From positions 1 to 64,000 of the forward strand of contig CAKZVC010000023.1 of NCBI GenBank assembly GCA_937922235.1: a stretch of 64,000 nucleotides of DNA, in the 5' to 3' direction. Positions within the stretch are counted from its first letter, which is position 1; each line of letters starts with the position of its first letter. The translations under genes were made by a program, and so were the position numbers. Under the pieces are notes generated by a model. It saw only the letters and a program-made list of their open reading frames with translations. It was not told the DNA's origin and did not search any database. Below, piece by piece: positions 59,356 to 64,000 of this stretch. Source of the DNA: an uncultured Acidimicrobiales bacterium (GTDB lineage: Bacteria; Actinomycetota; Acidimicrobiia; Acidimicrobiales; SHLQ01).

Positions 59356-60558
59356 TTAGGCGAGGGCGATGATGTTGTCGTCGGCGAGACGCCCGATCTC
59401 GGCAGTCGACAGGCCTAGCTCGGAGAGGATGGCCTCGGTGTCGGCGCCGAGCGCGGGGGCCGGGGCTGGTTCGACCGACAACATGCCGTCGAACGCGATC
59501 GGTGAGCCGGGTGAGAGGTACGTGCCGATATTGGGTTGTTCGACCTCACGGAAGAGTTCGCTTTCGGTCGAGCACCTCGGATCGTCGGCGACGAGTTCGA
59601 GGAAGTGCTGATATCGACCCCAACAGACGCCAAGATCGTCGAAGCGTTCGGCGAGCTCAGCGAGCGTGTGTGAGCCAGTCCACTGCTGCATAACTGCTTT
59701 GATCTCTTCTCGGGCTGCAAACCGAGCTCCCTCGTCACCAAAGTCGAGCGATTGTTGTTCGCCAATAGCGGCCACGAGCTCGGTGGCGTCGGTGGCCTCG
59801 AGCAGCGAGCGCCACTGTTTGTTCGAGATGCCCACGGTGTAGATCTTCTCGTCGTCTGCCGTCGTGAACATCGCCCCGAACGCTCCATACAGATCGTTGC
59901 CGAACCGTTGGCGTTCCGTACCGAGCACCTGAGCCTCGCCAACATGACCCAACGCCGATACCGCGGCCAAGGCGACATCGAACAGTGCAAGCGACATGTT
60001 CGACCCCTTCCCTGTTCGGGTGCGATGACGGTCGGCAGCGAGCATGCCCAGTGCCGCTGTCTGCCCGCAGATGAGGTCCCACGCAGCGAGAACGTTGTTG
60101 ACGGGCTGATCGTGTTCGACGGGGCCGGTCACAAACGGGAATCCAATCGCTGCGTTGACCGTGTAGTCGAGAGCGGTGCTGCCGTCGCGGTTGCCGGTGA
60201 CGGCCAGCATGTTCAGATCAGGCTTTGATACCGATAACGCCTCGTACGACATCCACCCGCGCGCCGGGAAGTTCGTCAGAAAGTTGCCCGCTTCGGTGAT
60301 GAGCTCGGTCAAGATCTCTCGAGCGCGGTCTGAGCGAAGGTCGGCTGCGAGCGAGCGCTTGTTCTTGTTCAAGCCAGCCCAGTACAGCGAATCCCCTTCG
60401 TCGGTGAGCGGCCAACGCTTGTAGTCGATGCCGCCGCCCAGCTGGTCGAAGCGGATGACCTCGGCCCCGAGCTGTGCCAGCGTCATCCCACCGCTCGGCG
60501 CCGCCACAAAGGCTGATCCTTCGATAACCCGCATGCCATCCAGCGGCGGAACGTTCAT
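59356..60558 (-). CDS. Class-III CoA-transferase (CaiB/BaiF family)
   Basis: 400 residues, normal for the family. MRVIEGSAFVAAPSGGMTLAQLGAEVI (N-terminal CaiB start; see PSGGMTLAQLGAEVIRF), GLNKNKRSLAADLRSDRAR (CoA-binding), the catalytic Asp in the region NRDGSTALDYTVNAAIGF and GALSALGHVG-type mid region. Transfers CoA between carboxylic acids. Divergent from the DMSP-lyase-like cupin gene with 34 bases between starts, so a role in the same pathway is a reasonable inference. SD GGGAG present. Confidence 0.88.
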   Translation of the reverse strand: MNVPPLDGMRVIEGSAFVAAPSGGMTLAQLGAEVIRFDQLGGGIDYKRWPLTDEGDSLYWAGLNKNKRSLAADLRSDRAREILTELITEAGNFLTNFPARGWMSYEALSVSKPDLNMLAVTGNRDGSTALDYTVNAAIGFPFVTGPVEHDQPVNNVLAAWDLICGQTAALGMLAADRHRTRTGKGSNMSLALFDVALAAVSALGHVGEAQVLGTERQRFGNDLYGAFGAMFTTADDEKIYTVGISNKQWRSLLEATDATELVAAIGEQQSLDFGDEGARFAAREEIKAVMQQWTGSHTLAELAERFDDLGVCWGRYQHFLELVADDPRCSTESELFREVEQPNIGTYLSPGSPIAFDGMLSVEPAPAPALGADTEAILSELGLSTAEIGRLADDNIIALA

Positions 60559-60580
60559 GTCATCTCCCGAGCGTGCGAAC

Positions 60581-60592
60581 TACTATCGCGGC
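60581..60592 (+). promoter_or_regulatory. Leaderless promoter of the DMSP-lyase-like cupin gene
   Basis: TACTAT (60581-60586), six bases, ATG at 60593. Confidence 0.55.
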
Positions 60593-61183
60593 ATGTCTAG
60601 CACGTGTGCGTTCAATGGGATCCTGACCGAGGCTCGGTCGATGCTTGCCGGTGTTGATGAGGCCATGGCCCAGGCGTTTGTCACCCTGATCGACACGACC
60701 ATGAATGGCGACATCATCACGTCATCACAGCCGTTCCCGCTCGACGACAAGCCCGACCTCGTCGCACTCGCAAACGATCACACCCGATCGATCGTGCAGA
60801 CGATCGAAGACACGTCGCCCGAGATCAACTGGTGGCAAAGCTCAGCCGAACGTGTGCCGCCGGGGTGGCAGCATCGCAGCGCCGCCACCGAGCTCATCGG
60901 GCCCGAAGGCTCGATCGTCGGCTCAGGCACCGAACGATTTGGTCTCTTCTACCTCTCGGCCAACATCGACTACCCAAACCACTGGCACAACGCCGAGGAG
61001 TTCTATCTGATCCTTGCGGGGTCCGGCGAGTGGACCATCGATGGCGTGACCAAGCGAAACGGACCGGGCGACTACAGCCGCACGCCCTCGCTCGCCCACC
61101 ACCGCATCGTCACCGGAGACACGCCAATGTTGGCCATGTGGGGTTGGTCCGGCGACACCAGCTTCGACAGCTACGCCTACTAG
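60593..61183 (+). CDS. Cupin protein resembling dimethylsulfoniopropionate lyases (DddQ/DddL-type)
   Basis: 196 residues from the ATG at 60593. A helical N-terminal half (1-90) is followed by a cupin core: PPGWQHRSAATELIGPEGSI, FGLFYLSANIDYPNHWHNAE with His130, His132, Glu136 and Tyr138 in the metal/active-site motif HxHxAEExY, then LAHHRIVTGDTPMLAMWGWS with a further His at 169/170. The HxHxAEExY motif, the closing W-x-GD and the length fit the DMSP lyase family, where Tyr acts as base. Not proven; other cupins share the fold. Divergent from a CaiB CoA-transferase. A frame starting at 60428 overlaps that gene and is rejected. Confidence 0.6.
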   Translation: MSSTCAFNGILTEARSMLAGVDEAMAQAFVTLIDTTMNGDIITSSQPFPLDDKPDLVALANDHTRSIVQTIEDTSPEINWWQSSAERVPPGWQHRSAATELIGPEGSIVGSGTERFGLFYLSANIDYPNHWHNAEEFYLILAGSGEWTIDGVTKRNGPGDYSRTPSLAHHRIVTGDTPMLAMWGWSGDTSFDSYAY

Positions 61184-61189
61184 CGTCAG

Positions 61190-62020
61190 TTAGCCGTTGC
61201 TGCGAAGGCGCTTGAGCAGCCAGCGAAGAAGAAGTAGACCGATTGCGCCGCCAGCAGCTTGCGCTCCGTACTGCTTTGCGAGCGTCTTGCCCAGACCGAT
61301 ATCGCCAAGGTCGAGCACATTGTCGTCGTCCTCGTCGGCCTTCGCCGTTGGAGCGGCCGCCGGAGCAGGCGTTGAGGCTGGGGCTGCAATGTCGGGAGCC
61401 GCAGCCGGGGCCGGGGCGCCCTGAGGGGTAGCCGCGTGCGCGGGCGCCGGAGCGTCAGCGGGAACTGCCGACTGAGGAACAGGAGGCGGGCTCGGCATGG
61501 TTGGAGGAATAGTGGCGCCTCCAACGGCGGCGGTGGTTGCGGCCGCGCTGGCTGCGGCGATGCCATCGATGGTTGCTGGCTCGGCGATCTTGGCTTCGAG
61601 GCACTCGGCGAACTGCCCGAGCAGCTTGGTCGAGATGTCCTGCATCACGCCTCGGCCAAACTGGGCGACCTTTCCGGAGACCTTGAGGTCGGTCACGATG
61701 TCGACGGTCGTCTGATTGCCGACAGGGGTCATCTGCGCGGTGATCAGCGCCTGAGCGTTACCGGCGCCGCGCGTGTCACGGCCCTTGCCGTTGATGATGA
61801 CCTTGCGGGCAACCTCGTCCTTCTCGACAAACTCGGCCTGACCCTTGTACTCCGCGGTGACAGGGCCGACCTTGATCTTGATCCCGCCCTTGAACACGTC
61901 GTCGGTCGCGTCGGTCAGCTTCGCACCGGGTAGGCAGGGAGCAATTTCAGGAATGTTGGTGAGCAAATCCCACGCTTCATCGATCGGTGCGTCAACGGTG
62001 AATGAGTTCGTGATCTCCAT
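61190..62020 (-). CDS. CoxG-like (carbon monoxide dehydrogenase subunit G) SRPBCC protein
   Basis: 276 residues. Residues 1-150 are a CoxG/SRPBCC domain (FTVDAPIDEAWDLLTNIPEI, CLPGAKLTD, GGIKIKVGPVTAEYKGQAEF). Residues 155-235 are an Ala/Pro-rich low-complexity linker, and 245-276 (KTLAKQYGAQAAGGAIGLLL) form a hydrophobic C-terminal anchor. CoxG tethers CO dehydrogenase to the membrane in Oligotropha, and the anchor fits that. No coxLMS genes are in the window, so the partner enzyme is unknown. Probably first or last of a minus-strand operon with the hydrolase and SDR. Confidence 0.82.
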   Translation of the reverse strand: MEITNSFTVDAPIDEAWDLLTNIPEIAPCLPGAKLTDATDDVFKGGIKIKVGPVTAEYKGQAEFVEKDEVARKVIINGKGRDTRGAGNAQALITAQMTPVGNQTTVDIVTDLKVSGKVAQFGRGVMQDISTKLLGQFAECLEAKIAEPATIDGIAAASAAATTAAVGGATIPPTMPSPPPVPQSAVPADAPAPAHAATPQGAPAPAAAPDIAAPASTPAPAAAPTAKADEDDDNVLDLGDIGLGKTLAKQYGAQAAGGAIGLLLLRWLLKRLRSNG

Positions 62021-62029
62021 GACCGGACG

Positions 62030-62932
62030 TTACCGCGCATTCAGGAATGCAGCGATTTCACGCAACGACTCAGCAGCTTCCGGAAGCTCATCGTAGAACT
62101 CAAATACGTGCCACAAACCCGGCCACACATTGCATTCGACCTCGACCCCAGCTCGCCGAAGTTGACGAGCAAGGCGAATCGTCATCTCGCTCAACAAGTC
62201 GCGAGTTCCCGTGGTGAGAACCGTCGGGGGCAGGCCCTTCATCGAGCCGAACAGCGGAGAAACCGCCGGGTCGTCGAGCGCGTAGTCGACGGCATAGACC
62301 CCAGCGACGTCGAGCATGAGCTGATGCGAAAGCGACGGGTCACGGTCGACAACAAGGCCGAACAGTTCGCGATCGACGCGAAGGTCGACCGCGGGTGAGA
62401 GCAGCCCGAGGGCCACGGGCGCCGGCACTCCCTCAGCAACGGAGCGCTGCACGGTGAGTAACGCGAGGTTCCCACCGGCGCTTTCACCGGCAACGAGCAA
62501 CCTGCCACCTGAGCCAGCCAGTTCCCGATACACCGCCATGCAGTCATCGCTTGCTGCCGGGGCCGGGTGCTCGGGAGCAAGCCGATACCGCGGCGCAATC
62601 ACTTCGACGCCGCACCATTCGGCGAGAGCGCCAATGACGGGCATGTCGGTTTCTGGGTCGCCAACGATGAAGCCACCGCCGAAGACGTAGAGCATCGAGC
62701 CGTTGGCTGTGCCGCCAGTGGTCGATCGAATACGAAGACAATCAACGCCACCAACAACGACGTCGGCGAACTCGAGCGAGTGTCTCGTGGTGGCTCGATC
62801 GACCGCTGCCGCGAAACCGTTCTTGGCTTCGGCACGTCGCTCATCGATCTTCGAGAAGTCGATCGGTTCGGTGTCGGGCGCGTACGACTCCCGTTTGGCA
62901 ATTGCCTCTTGACTCGGCTCCCCCGCGCTCAT
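62030..62932 (-). CDS. Alpha/beta hydrolase of the HSL/lipase family
   Basis: 300 residues. Oxyanion motif YVFGGGFIVGDP (about 80-91; FGGG in place of HGGG), APRYRLAPEHPAPAA, nucleophile GESAGGN (Ser about 147), Asp in TGTRDLLSEM (about 247) and His near WHVFEFY (about 277). This is the hormone-sensitive-lipase esterase family. The change of the first His of HGGG to Phe is unusual. Start overlaps the SDR stop by four bases. Confidence 0.87.
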   Translation of the reverse strand: MSAGEPSQEAIAKRESYAPDTEPIDFSKIDERRAEAKNGFAAAVDRATTRHSLEFADVVVGGVDCLRIRSTTGGTANGSMLYVFGGGFIVGDPETDMPVIGALAEWCGVEVIAPRYRLAPEHPAPAASDDCMAVYRELAGSGGRLLVAGESAGGNLALLTVQRSVAEGVPAPVALGLLSPAVDLRVDRELFGLVVDRDPSLSHQLMLDVAGVYAVDYALDDPAVSPLFGSMKGLPPTVLTTGTRDLLSEMTIRLARQLRRAGVEVECNVWPGLWHVFEFYDELPEAAESLREIAAFLNAR

Positions 62933-63675
62933 CGAGCCGTGTACCCGGCGTCGACGTGGACGATCTCGCCCGTCATGTAACTCGCATCGTCCGACGCAAG
63001 AAAGGCGACGACCTTGGCAATCTCGATCGGCTCGGCGAGTCGCTTCATTGGGATCGTGGCGTCGGCCATTGCTTGAAGGTCAGCTTCGGTCGGTGTGGTC
63101 TCGCGCTGCGACGACAACATCGGCGTCCGCACCTCGCCCGGGGCCACGGCGTTGACTCGAATGCCCTGCTCGACGTGGTCGAGGGCCATTGCCCTGGTGA
63201 GTTGATGCACGGCACCCTTCGACACGCAATAGGCGGTGGCACCAGCAGAACCAACACCGCCCCAGATCGACCCAAAGTTCACGATCGAACCGCCACCGGC
63301 CGCAGCCATGTGCCCGACCGCTGCCCGGCACAAATAGAACATGCCGTTGACGTTGACCGCCATGACCCGATCCCAGTCGGCATCGTTCGTGCCCAACGCA
63401 TCGGCCCGATGGATCGTGCCTGCCGCATTCACCAGAACATCGACCTGACCGTGTTCGGCGACGATGCGATTGATCGTCTCGGTGCAGAAGTTCGAATCGG
63501 CCACGCTGCCCTTATACGCGTGGCCGCTGATCGAGCCGGCGACAGACGCTACGTCGGGTGAGACATCGATAAGACACACGGTGGCACCCTTCTCGGAGAA
63601 GAGTTGTGCCGACGCCTTCCCCATCCCCGACGCCGCTCCGGTAACCGCGACAACCTTGCCCGTGAAGTCAGACAC
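62929..63675 (-). CDS. Short-chain dehydrogenase/reductase (classical, 3-oxoacyl-ACP reductase-like)
   Basis: 248 residues from the GTG at 63675 (VSDFTGKVVAVTGAASGMGK), overlapping the preceding gene by eight bases; an ATG at 63717 would give a 50-base overlap. TGAASGMGKA (about 12-21), NAAGT (about 84), Ser in VNFGSIWGG (about 134) and YCVSKGA (about 147-153) form the catalytic set; it ends GEIVHVDAGYTAR. NAD(P)-dependent; substrate unknown. Confidence 0.9.
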   Translation of the reverse strand: MSDFTGKVVAVTGAASGMGKASAQLFSEKGATVCLIDVSPDVASVAGSISGHAYKGSVADSNFCTETINRIVAEHGQVDVLVNAAGTIHRADALGTNDADWDRVMAVNVNGMFYLCRAAVGHMAAAGGGSIVNFGSIWGGVGSAGATAYCVSKGAVHQLTRAMALDHVEQGIRVNAVAPGEVRTPMLSSQRETTPTEADLQAMADATIPMKRLAEPIEIAKVVAFLASDDASYMTGEIVHVDAGYTAR

Positions 63676-64000
63676 CGGGTACCCAACTTTCTGTTTGTAC
63701 GCCGAGCCCGTCGGCAATGCGATTCACATACGCGTAGTAGCCGATCACTTCGGCGATGTCGAGGATGTCACGATCGGTGAAGCCGGCTGCACGAAGCTCG
63801 TCGACATCGGCGAGCGTCATCGCACCAGGGGTATGTGTGAGCTTCGCTGCGTAGTCGACCATCGCCCGACGAGGGGGCGAGAGCTCGGCGGTGCGCCAAT
63901 CGGATTCGATCGCGGCGAAAAGCTCGTCGTCTTTCAGAAGTCGGCGCAGACCGCGCCCGTGATGCACCACTCAATAGTGGCAATGGTTCTCGAACGACAC
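63668..64000 (-). CDS. AhpD-like/carboxymuconolactone-decarboxylase-family protein, probable selenoprotein, 5'-truncated by the window
   Basis: Read from the right edge: VSFENHCHY, then TGA (63973-63971), then VVHHGRGLRRLLKDDELFAA and on to the stop at 63670-63668. In this family (peroxidase-related/AhpD) the motif is NxCxYC-x-x-HHG; the TGA stands exactly where the second, peroxidatic-type Cys belongs, so it is read as selenocysteine. The sequence stays family-like on both sides (LSPPRRAMVDYAAKLTHTPG, DRDILDIAEVIGYYAYVNRI). A bacterial SECIS-type hairpin follows the codon at the right distance. Ordinary gene calling would start at the GTG just after the TGA and lose the active site. At least nine residues precede it inside the window; the start is outside. 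Alternative: a nonsense mutation. Confidence 0.8.
63943..63973 (-). promoter_or_regulatory. Predicted bacterial SECIS element
   Basis: After the TGA come 18 bases, then the loop GGTCT (63952-63948) closed by the stem GGCGC / GCGCC (63957-63953 and 63947-63943). The spacing and the loop GGTCTGC equal those of the E. coli fdhF SECIS as I recall it. Confidence 0.75.

Follow-up and report, generated by a model that had tools for sequence, protein, structure and literature searches.

The analysed window (64,000 nucleotides from an uncultured actinobacterium, positions 1-64000 of contig C23 of a 4.4 Mb draft genome in 118 contigs) ends within a gene for an AhpD-like, putatively antioxidant enzyme that is interrupted by an in-frame UGA codon, and this UGA very probably encodes selenocysteine (Sec) in the active site. 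A functional selenoprotein gene, with Sec insertion predicted from frame, hairpin and orthologues, is the best explanation and one that we hold with high confidence. For a prediction from sequence the evidence is unusually strong, and it points to a bacterial group that keeps selenium in an AhpD-like enzyme. The features of the gene are as follows.

63668..64000, minus strand: 3' part of the AhpD-like TIGR01926 selenoprotein gene, predicted from its frame and orthologues
63971..63973, minus strand: in-frame TGA, codon 93, read as Sec, second position of CxxU
63980..63982, minus strand: codon of Cys90, first Cys of CxxU, the resolving thiol by homology
63959..63961, minus strand: codon of His97, putative proton-relay His (His137 of Mycobacterium tuberculosis AhpD)
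64016-64018 of the contig, just past the window edge, minus strand: codon of Glu78 (Glu118 of M. tuberculosis AhpD)
63942..63958, minus strand: predicted bacterial SECIS hairpin, 18 nt after the UGA
63668..63970, minus strand: 100-residue GTG ORF of the standard translation (ORF list), without the redox motif

The in-frame TGA and the selenocysteine machinery

The full gene encodes 193 residues and runs on the minus strand from an ATG located 249 bases past the window end (contig position 64249) to a TGA stop at 63668-63670. It contains one in-frame TGA, at codon 93, and the sequence around the predicted Sec is ...VVSFENHCHY-U-VVHHGRGLRRLL.... The first-pass annotation, made from the window alone, had followed the frame upstream of the GTG through the TGA and had placed the TGA at the second Cys of a CxxC motif (ENHCHY-U-VVHH). 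Both claims are borne out, the latter by the frame and by the homologue column; the true start, which it had suggested looking for beyond the window, is indeed there, making the gene longer than the interval noted. Its statement that standard annotation truncates and disables the protein agrees with the standard translation, which starts at the GTG, the codon immediately after the TGA, and yields a 100-residue fragment without the active site. Between the gene and ten relatives, the differences at the three codon positions number 127/99/342 over the 70 codons before the TGA and 172/145/395 over the 80 codons after it. This third-position bias on both sides of the TGA is of the coding type.

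Among 19 genomes of the family, the genome of the window and nine others contain a close orthologue (the nine at 69-81% identity), each with one TGA, which stands at the same codon throughout; the remaining nine have remote matches or none. The named relatives, with 69-75% identity, are Acidimicrobiales metagenome-assembled genomes (MAGs), in keeping with the earlier description of the protein as an actinobacterial example. When 395 genomes from the class were searched with a profile, 164 had a match, and from these 80 further loci were chosen to join 30 loci as alignment rows. A strong orthologue (E < 1e-70) was found in 79 of the 395, among the matches listed and not counting genome G347, where the gene is cut by a contig end. 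A search of 396 genomes of the phylum added two orthologues from outside the class, both with TGA. The 127 aligned rows were reduced to 122 for the tree by removing L053, L054 and L065 (copies of L020, L028 and L050), L163 (cut by a contig end; it has the TGA) and L040 (remote). In the resulting clade of the window's gene, clade A, the Sec codon is TGA in 88 of 89 rows, the exception being a TTA in L088. In that locus (contig C116 of G324) the SECIS stem is intact and compensated, and the TTA represents either an error or a recent loss. Homologues carry TGC or TGT at the redox column in 14 cases, and GCC (Ala) in one distant row, L158, so that the column, which the first-pass annotation had proposed as a check, holds Sec or Cys with this one exception. 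Four distant homologues with TGC or TGT (L036-L039) share their genomes with the Sec gene. A second genome collection contributed five loci, with TGA at this codon in all five. We mostly rejected these as independent support: the gene sequences of L047, L048, L049 and L050 are identical to those of L022, L023, L029 and L065, which had already been counted, leaving L051, from a Planctomycetota MAG, as the sole additional locus with TGA at the Sec codon.

The genome has the complete set of Sec genes that the first-pass annotation had named for a search: selA, selB, selC (tRNA-Sec) and selD. selA, selB and selD all lie on contig C64, the first two side by side, and two tRNA-Sec genes on contig C41; all score above their cut-offs, and ARAGORN agrees on the tRNAs. 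SelB possesses the C-terminal winged-helix domain. SelD (L019) forms the rear part of a fusion protein that begins with a pyridine-nucleotide-disulphide oxidoreductase domain; PMC2398784 describes fusions of Ndh with SelD. Across the family, selA is found in 17 of 18 further genomes. Among the matches listed for the class, it is present in 73 of the 79 genomes with the selenoprotein gene vs 186 of the 316 without it (Fisher p = 1.9e-9); the six clade genomes lacking a selA match are drafts, all at most 84% complete. The two tRNA-Sec genes (C41, 73-164 on the plus strand and 2063-2154 on the minus strand) are inverted, differ by one base and lie near the contig end, a pair that is either a duplication or an assembly artefact.

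Elsewhere in the genome, locus L005 (contig C40, 62734-65813) contains two tandem tRNA-like sequences, at 1321-1404 and 1501-1581 of the locus, that are 76% alike. The second, with the anticodon CUA, has 8 bp in its acceptor stem and 4 bp in its T stem, and we take it to be allo-tRNA-like; ARAGORN calls it tRNA-Pyl and does not call the first. No pylS scored above the cut-off in 11 genomes, and the tandem pair has no full-length match in the 18 further family genomes.

Three readings of the TGA other than Sec have to be weighed against these data. A premature stop in a decayed gene, with the 100-residue ORF or nothing being made, would agree with standard translation, which gives that ORF only; it is very unlikely given that the TGA is retained in 88 of 89 rows, the differences on both sides are of the coding type and the hairpin described below is conserved. 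A sequencing or assembly error for TGC or TGT might be suspected in a draft of 118 contigs, and the first-pass annotation had named it as a risk, but one TGA stands in the same gene and at the same codon in nine other family genomes. The TGA is therefore real, and we consider the error reading refuted, its residual probability being negligible. Reassignment of UGA to an ordinary amino acid would by itself fit the read-through frame, and we found nothing else in its favour; it is extremely improbable, as the selenoprotein gene itself ends in UGA, its neighbours are full-length under translation table 11 and the full Sec system is present.

The hairpin downstream of the TGA

The predicted SECIS hairpin has a five-base-pair stem, GGCGC/GCGCC (63957-63953 paired with 63947-63943), closing a GGUCU loop (63952-63948) 18 bases past the TGA, as the first-pass annotation had described. 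A sixth, outer pair (63958/63942) is formed in 72 of 86 distinct orthologue rows and absent in the gene of the window. The suggested likeness to E. coli fdhF is also correct: in NC_000913 the fdhF GGUCU loop lies at exactly +18, whereas the stem sequence is different. The bacterial SECIS model in a 2026 review (PMC13188914) specifies a loop of 3-9 nt, a stem of 4-16 bp, G in the first two loop positions, a spacing of 16-37 nt and a minimum free energy of at most -7.5 kcal/mol. Our hairpin falls within this model (loop 5, stem 5, GG, spacing 18), the isolated hairpin having a folding energy of -9.9 kcal/mol.

Folding the 45 bases after the TGA, as had been proposed, gave a mixed result. The hairpin taken alone agrees with the bacterial SECIS model, but the 45 nt as a whole have their lowest energy in another structure and fold no better than shuffled sequences (z -0.71; 49 of 200 shuffles fold as well). 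We therefore rejected single-sequence folding as proof of a SECIS. The presence of a hairpin was rejected as proof for a similar reason: among 20,000 synonymous recodings of the same peptide, 38% contain a loose bacterial SECIS-like stem (at least 5 bp), and 1.7% contain a 5-bp stem whose loop is exactly GGTCT at +18. The Rfam SECIS_1 model (RF00031) failed to match the gene and was also silent in all 14 controls; a second Rfam scan gave four matches, none of them a SECIS.

What decides on the reality of the SECIS is not folding energy but conservation and covariation across orthologues. The exact GGTCT hairpin at +18 with 5 bp is found in 86 of 90 orthologous loci (including L065, a copy of L050); the other four have a GGGCT loop (two loci), an A-G mismatch in the closing pair (one) or a mismatch in the outer pair (one). 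None of the 14 Cys homologues has this hairpin. In the 86 distinct rows 96.9% of the stem cells are paired vs 91.0% in shuffles, with none of 500 shuffles as high, and when the partner strand is slid, pairing reaches at most 57.0%. Pair 18-30 is GC in 61 rows, CG in 12, GU in seven, AU in four, UA in two and unpaired in none; all four Watson-Crick forms are thus seen. Its two bases are the third positions of codons 98 and 102. Codon 102 encodes Arg in 90 of 90 loci; at codon 98, Arg is encoded 78 times, Gly 11 times and Val once. Substitutions that stay within CGN or GGN are therefore silent. The tree requires at least 10 changes at stem position 18. Two other pairs have switched completely: two rows have UA for CG at 21-27, and one row has UA for GC at 17-31. 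Pairs with changes on both sides number three, a count that 20 of 500 shuffles also attain; the number of further pair types is attained by 1 of 500, and the values of the remaining three measures by 0 of 500. With two usable pairs on starred branches, an independent-pairs test on the tree could not reach significance. On this comparative evidence, the SECIS of the clade is under selection and is kept by compensatory change at third codon positions.

Fold, active site and predicted function

The protein was scored with Cys written for Sec. It matches the TIGR01926 peroxidase-related enzyme family with 140.5 bits (cut-off 81.8). The only Sec-labelled NCBIfam model that it matches is NF041238 (alkylhydroperoxidase-related (seleno)protein), a Sec-aware model of an AhpD relative with 357 positions, and this match is far below the cut-off (39.1 vs 175 bits). 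Sequence comparison places peroxidase-related proteins, 2pfx and 3c1l among them, closest among the solved structures. An AlphaFold model, again with Cys for Sec, has a pLDDT of 95.7 and a pTM of 0.90, and its best match in the PDB is 2prr (TM 0.85), with 2prr, 2pfx, 3c1l and 6k40 all at about 0.8-0.85. 2pfx, 3c1l, 2oyo, 2prr and 6k40 share the fold with 29-33% identity in structural alignments; 2pfx, 3c1l and 2oyo carry Cys where our protein has Sec, as seen in three sequence alignments. The debrominase Bmp8 (6ohi, 6ohj) is also among the structural matches.

The proton relay of M. tuberculosis AhpD consists of Glu118, Cys130, His132, Cys133 and His137 (PMC3141380). By spacing, these residues correspond to Glu78, Cys90, Tyr92, Sec93 and His97, placing Sec93 at the equivalent of Cys133. 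The all-helical AhpD-like fold and the relay (Glu, Cys, Tyr/His, Cys, His) are thus present, with Sec as the second Cys. Glu78, Cys90, Tyr92 and His97 are invariant in 50 aligned Sec and Cys homologues; the Sec/Cys invariance of column 93 in this alignment (A4) is by choice, as L158 with its Ala codon GCC was left out. Pseudomonas aeruginosa PA0269 resembles our protein in the spacing of Glu, Cys, Cys and His and in having Tyr between the two active-site positions, but has Cys instead of Sec; its chains are 24-26% identical to our protein in structural alignment. This distant homologue is reported to be a weak peroxidase (PMC3141380).

From homology, the predicted fold and the relay residues, the enzyme is most likely a selenol hydroperoxidase. 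In the mechanism that we envisage, SelB-GTP-Sec-tRNA would bind the hairpin, UGA would be decoded as Sec and the product would fold like the AhpD-like peroxidase-related proteins. With Sec93 acting for Cys133, Cys90 for Cys130 and Tyr92 for His132, Glu78 and His97 would complete the relay. Sec93 most likely attacks the hydroperoxide to give a selenenic acid, which Cys90 would resolve to a selenenylsulfide, and a reductant would then recycle the latter.

The selenoprotein gene belongs to a run of genes on the minus strand.

62929..63675, minus strand: short-chain dehydrogenase (SDR), probable GTG start, overlapping the selenoprotein gene end by 8 nt
62030..62932, minus strand: alpha/beta hydrolase (Abhydrolase_3, Pfam), next in the run
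61190..62020, minus strand: CoxG-family protein (Pfam), next in the run

In this genome the SDR is possibly co-transcribed with the selenoprotein gene. An SDR lies beside the gene in 7 of 90 loci, and no neighbour is conserved in more than 15 of the 90 (the flanks span at most about 2.5-3 kb and are often cut by contig ends). Since the neighbourhood is not conserved, it names no substrate or partner, and we rejected it as a guide to function. Pfam scanning of six neighbouring proteins revealed no peroxiredoxin. Further along the window, a cupin protein on the plus strand (60428-61183) matches a Pfam DMSP lyase family and adjoins a class III CoA-transferase (59356-60558, minus strand). Upstream of the selenoprotein start, at 64268-64289 of contig C23, is a perfect 8-bp inverted repeat, GGCGTTCA/TGAACGCC, either a terminator or an operator.

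Could the selenoprotein be something other than chiefly a peroxidase, namely a selenol/thiol adaptor that returns a peroxiredoxin to its reduced state, as AhpD does with AhpC, or an enzyme of the same fold that reduces another substrate? AhpD itself has been described as an adaptor that has peroxidase activity (PMC3141380), the model matches the debrominase Bmp8, and the gene overlaps an SDR gene and precedes a hydrolase gene. Against this, the 50 aligned rows show no variation in Glu, Cys, Tyr and His of the relay, there is no peroxiredoxin among the six scanned neighbours, and no partner is shared by more than 15 of the 90 loci. We regard such a function as possible, though rather unlikely, and prefer the predicted selenol hydroperoxidase.

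A selenocysteine clade centred on Acidimicrobiia

On the tree, two neighbouring clades are set off from most Cys homologues: clade A, with 89 rows of which 88 have Sec, and clade B, with 18 rows that all have TGA. The tree was made quickly; its long branches, and the support of only 53 for the split that has clade A on one side, call for caution. The SECIS of clade B differs: most rows place a GGUC loop at about +25. Here 87.3% of the stem cells are paired; both-sides changes number one, reached by 280 of 500 shuffles, and the covariation score is reached by 3 of 500. The clade B SECIS is thus, by sequence comparison, supported less well than that of clade A. The members of clade B (L137-L145, L147-L154, L164) are CxxU proteins that also occur in a genus with genomes of about 1 Mb; our guess is that these small genomes are Actinomarina-like.

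Sec also appears in other parts of TIGR01926. L183 and L184 (from G570 and G628) have TGA at the column, whereas the five other members of their family that were read (L185-L189) have Cys; the two probably represent a separate switch between Cys and Sec. L177-L179 have TGA at the Sec column too. This pattern suggests that Cys and Sec have been exchanged repeatedly inside TIGR01926. Three remote CMD/AhpD-like frames in genomes of the family (L035, L044, L045) have TGA at the CxxU position and are probably more AhpD-like selenoproteins.

AhpD-like selenoproteins with CxxU have been described from the Sargasso Sea ('AhpD-like protein', COG2128; PMC1088965) and from GOS data ('AhpD-like 1'; PMC2398784), and one with MCB9421940.1 as the example is entered under TIGR01926 in the 2026 review (PMC13188914). 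They have the same CxxU and a stem-loop after the TGA. A clostridial genome, too, is listed with an AhpD-like selenoprotein of COG2128 (PMC1794560). The first-pass annotation was therefore right that such proteins are known, and the kind of enzyme is not new. As for the actinobacterial Sec clade, we found no description of it in the parts of the literature that were searched, and one may still be published; the word 'actinobacteria' has no occurrence in the main texts of PMC2398784 and PMC13188914. What the analysis adds, on the sequences compared, is an Acidimicrobiia-centred clade in which no Cys member was seen among 89 tree rows (88 Sec, one TTA), with covariation indicating a SECIS under selection.

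We lean towards a broader reading, in which clade A has been Sec-only since its origin and is selenium-dependent. Together with the other Sec lineages (clade B and further TIGR01926 members), it would form a stronghold of AhpD-like selenoenzymes that helps to keep the Sec system and is largely lost to annotation. The Sec-only part of this reading spans Acidimicrobiia, the two other genomes of the phylum and the one Planctomycetota MAG. With NF041238 scoring so far under its cut-off, the same annotation loss may well affect many Acidimicrobiia genomes. The SECIS of the clade makes selection on RNA structure visible through covariation at third codon positions, and the clade as a whole provides a natural test of why Sec, and not Cys, stays in a putative peroxidase.
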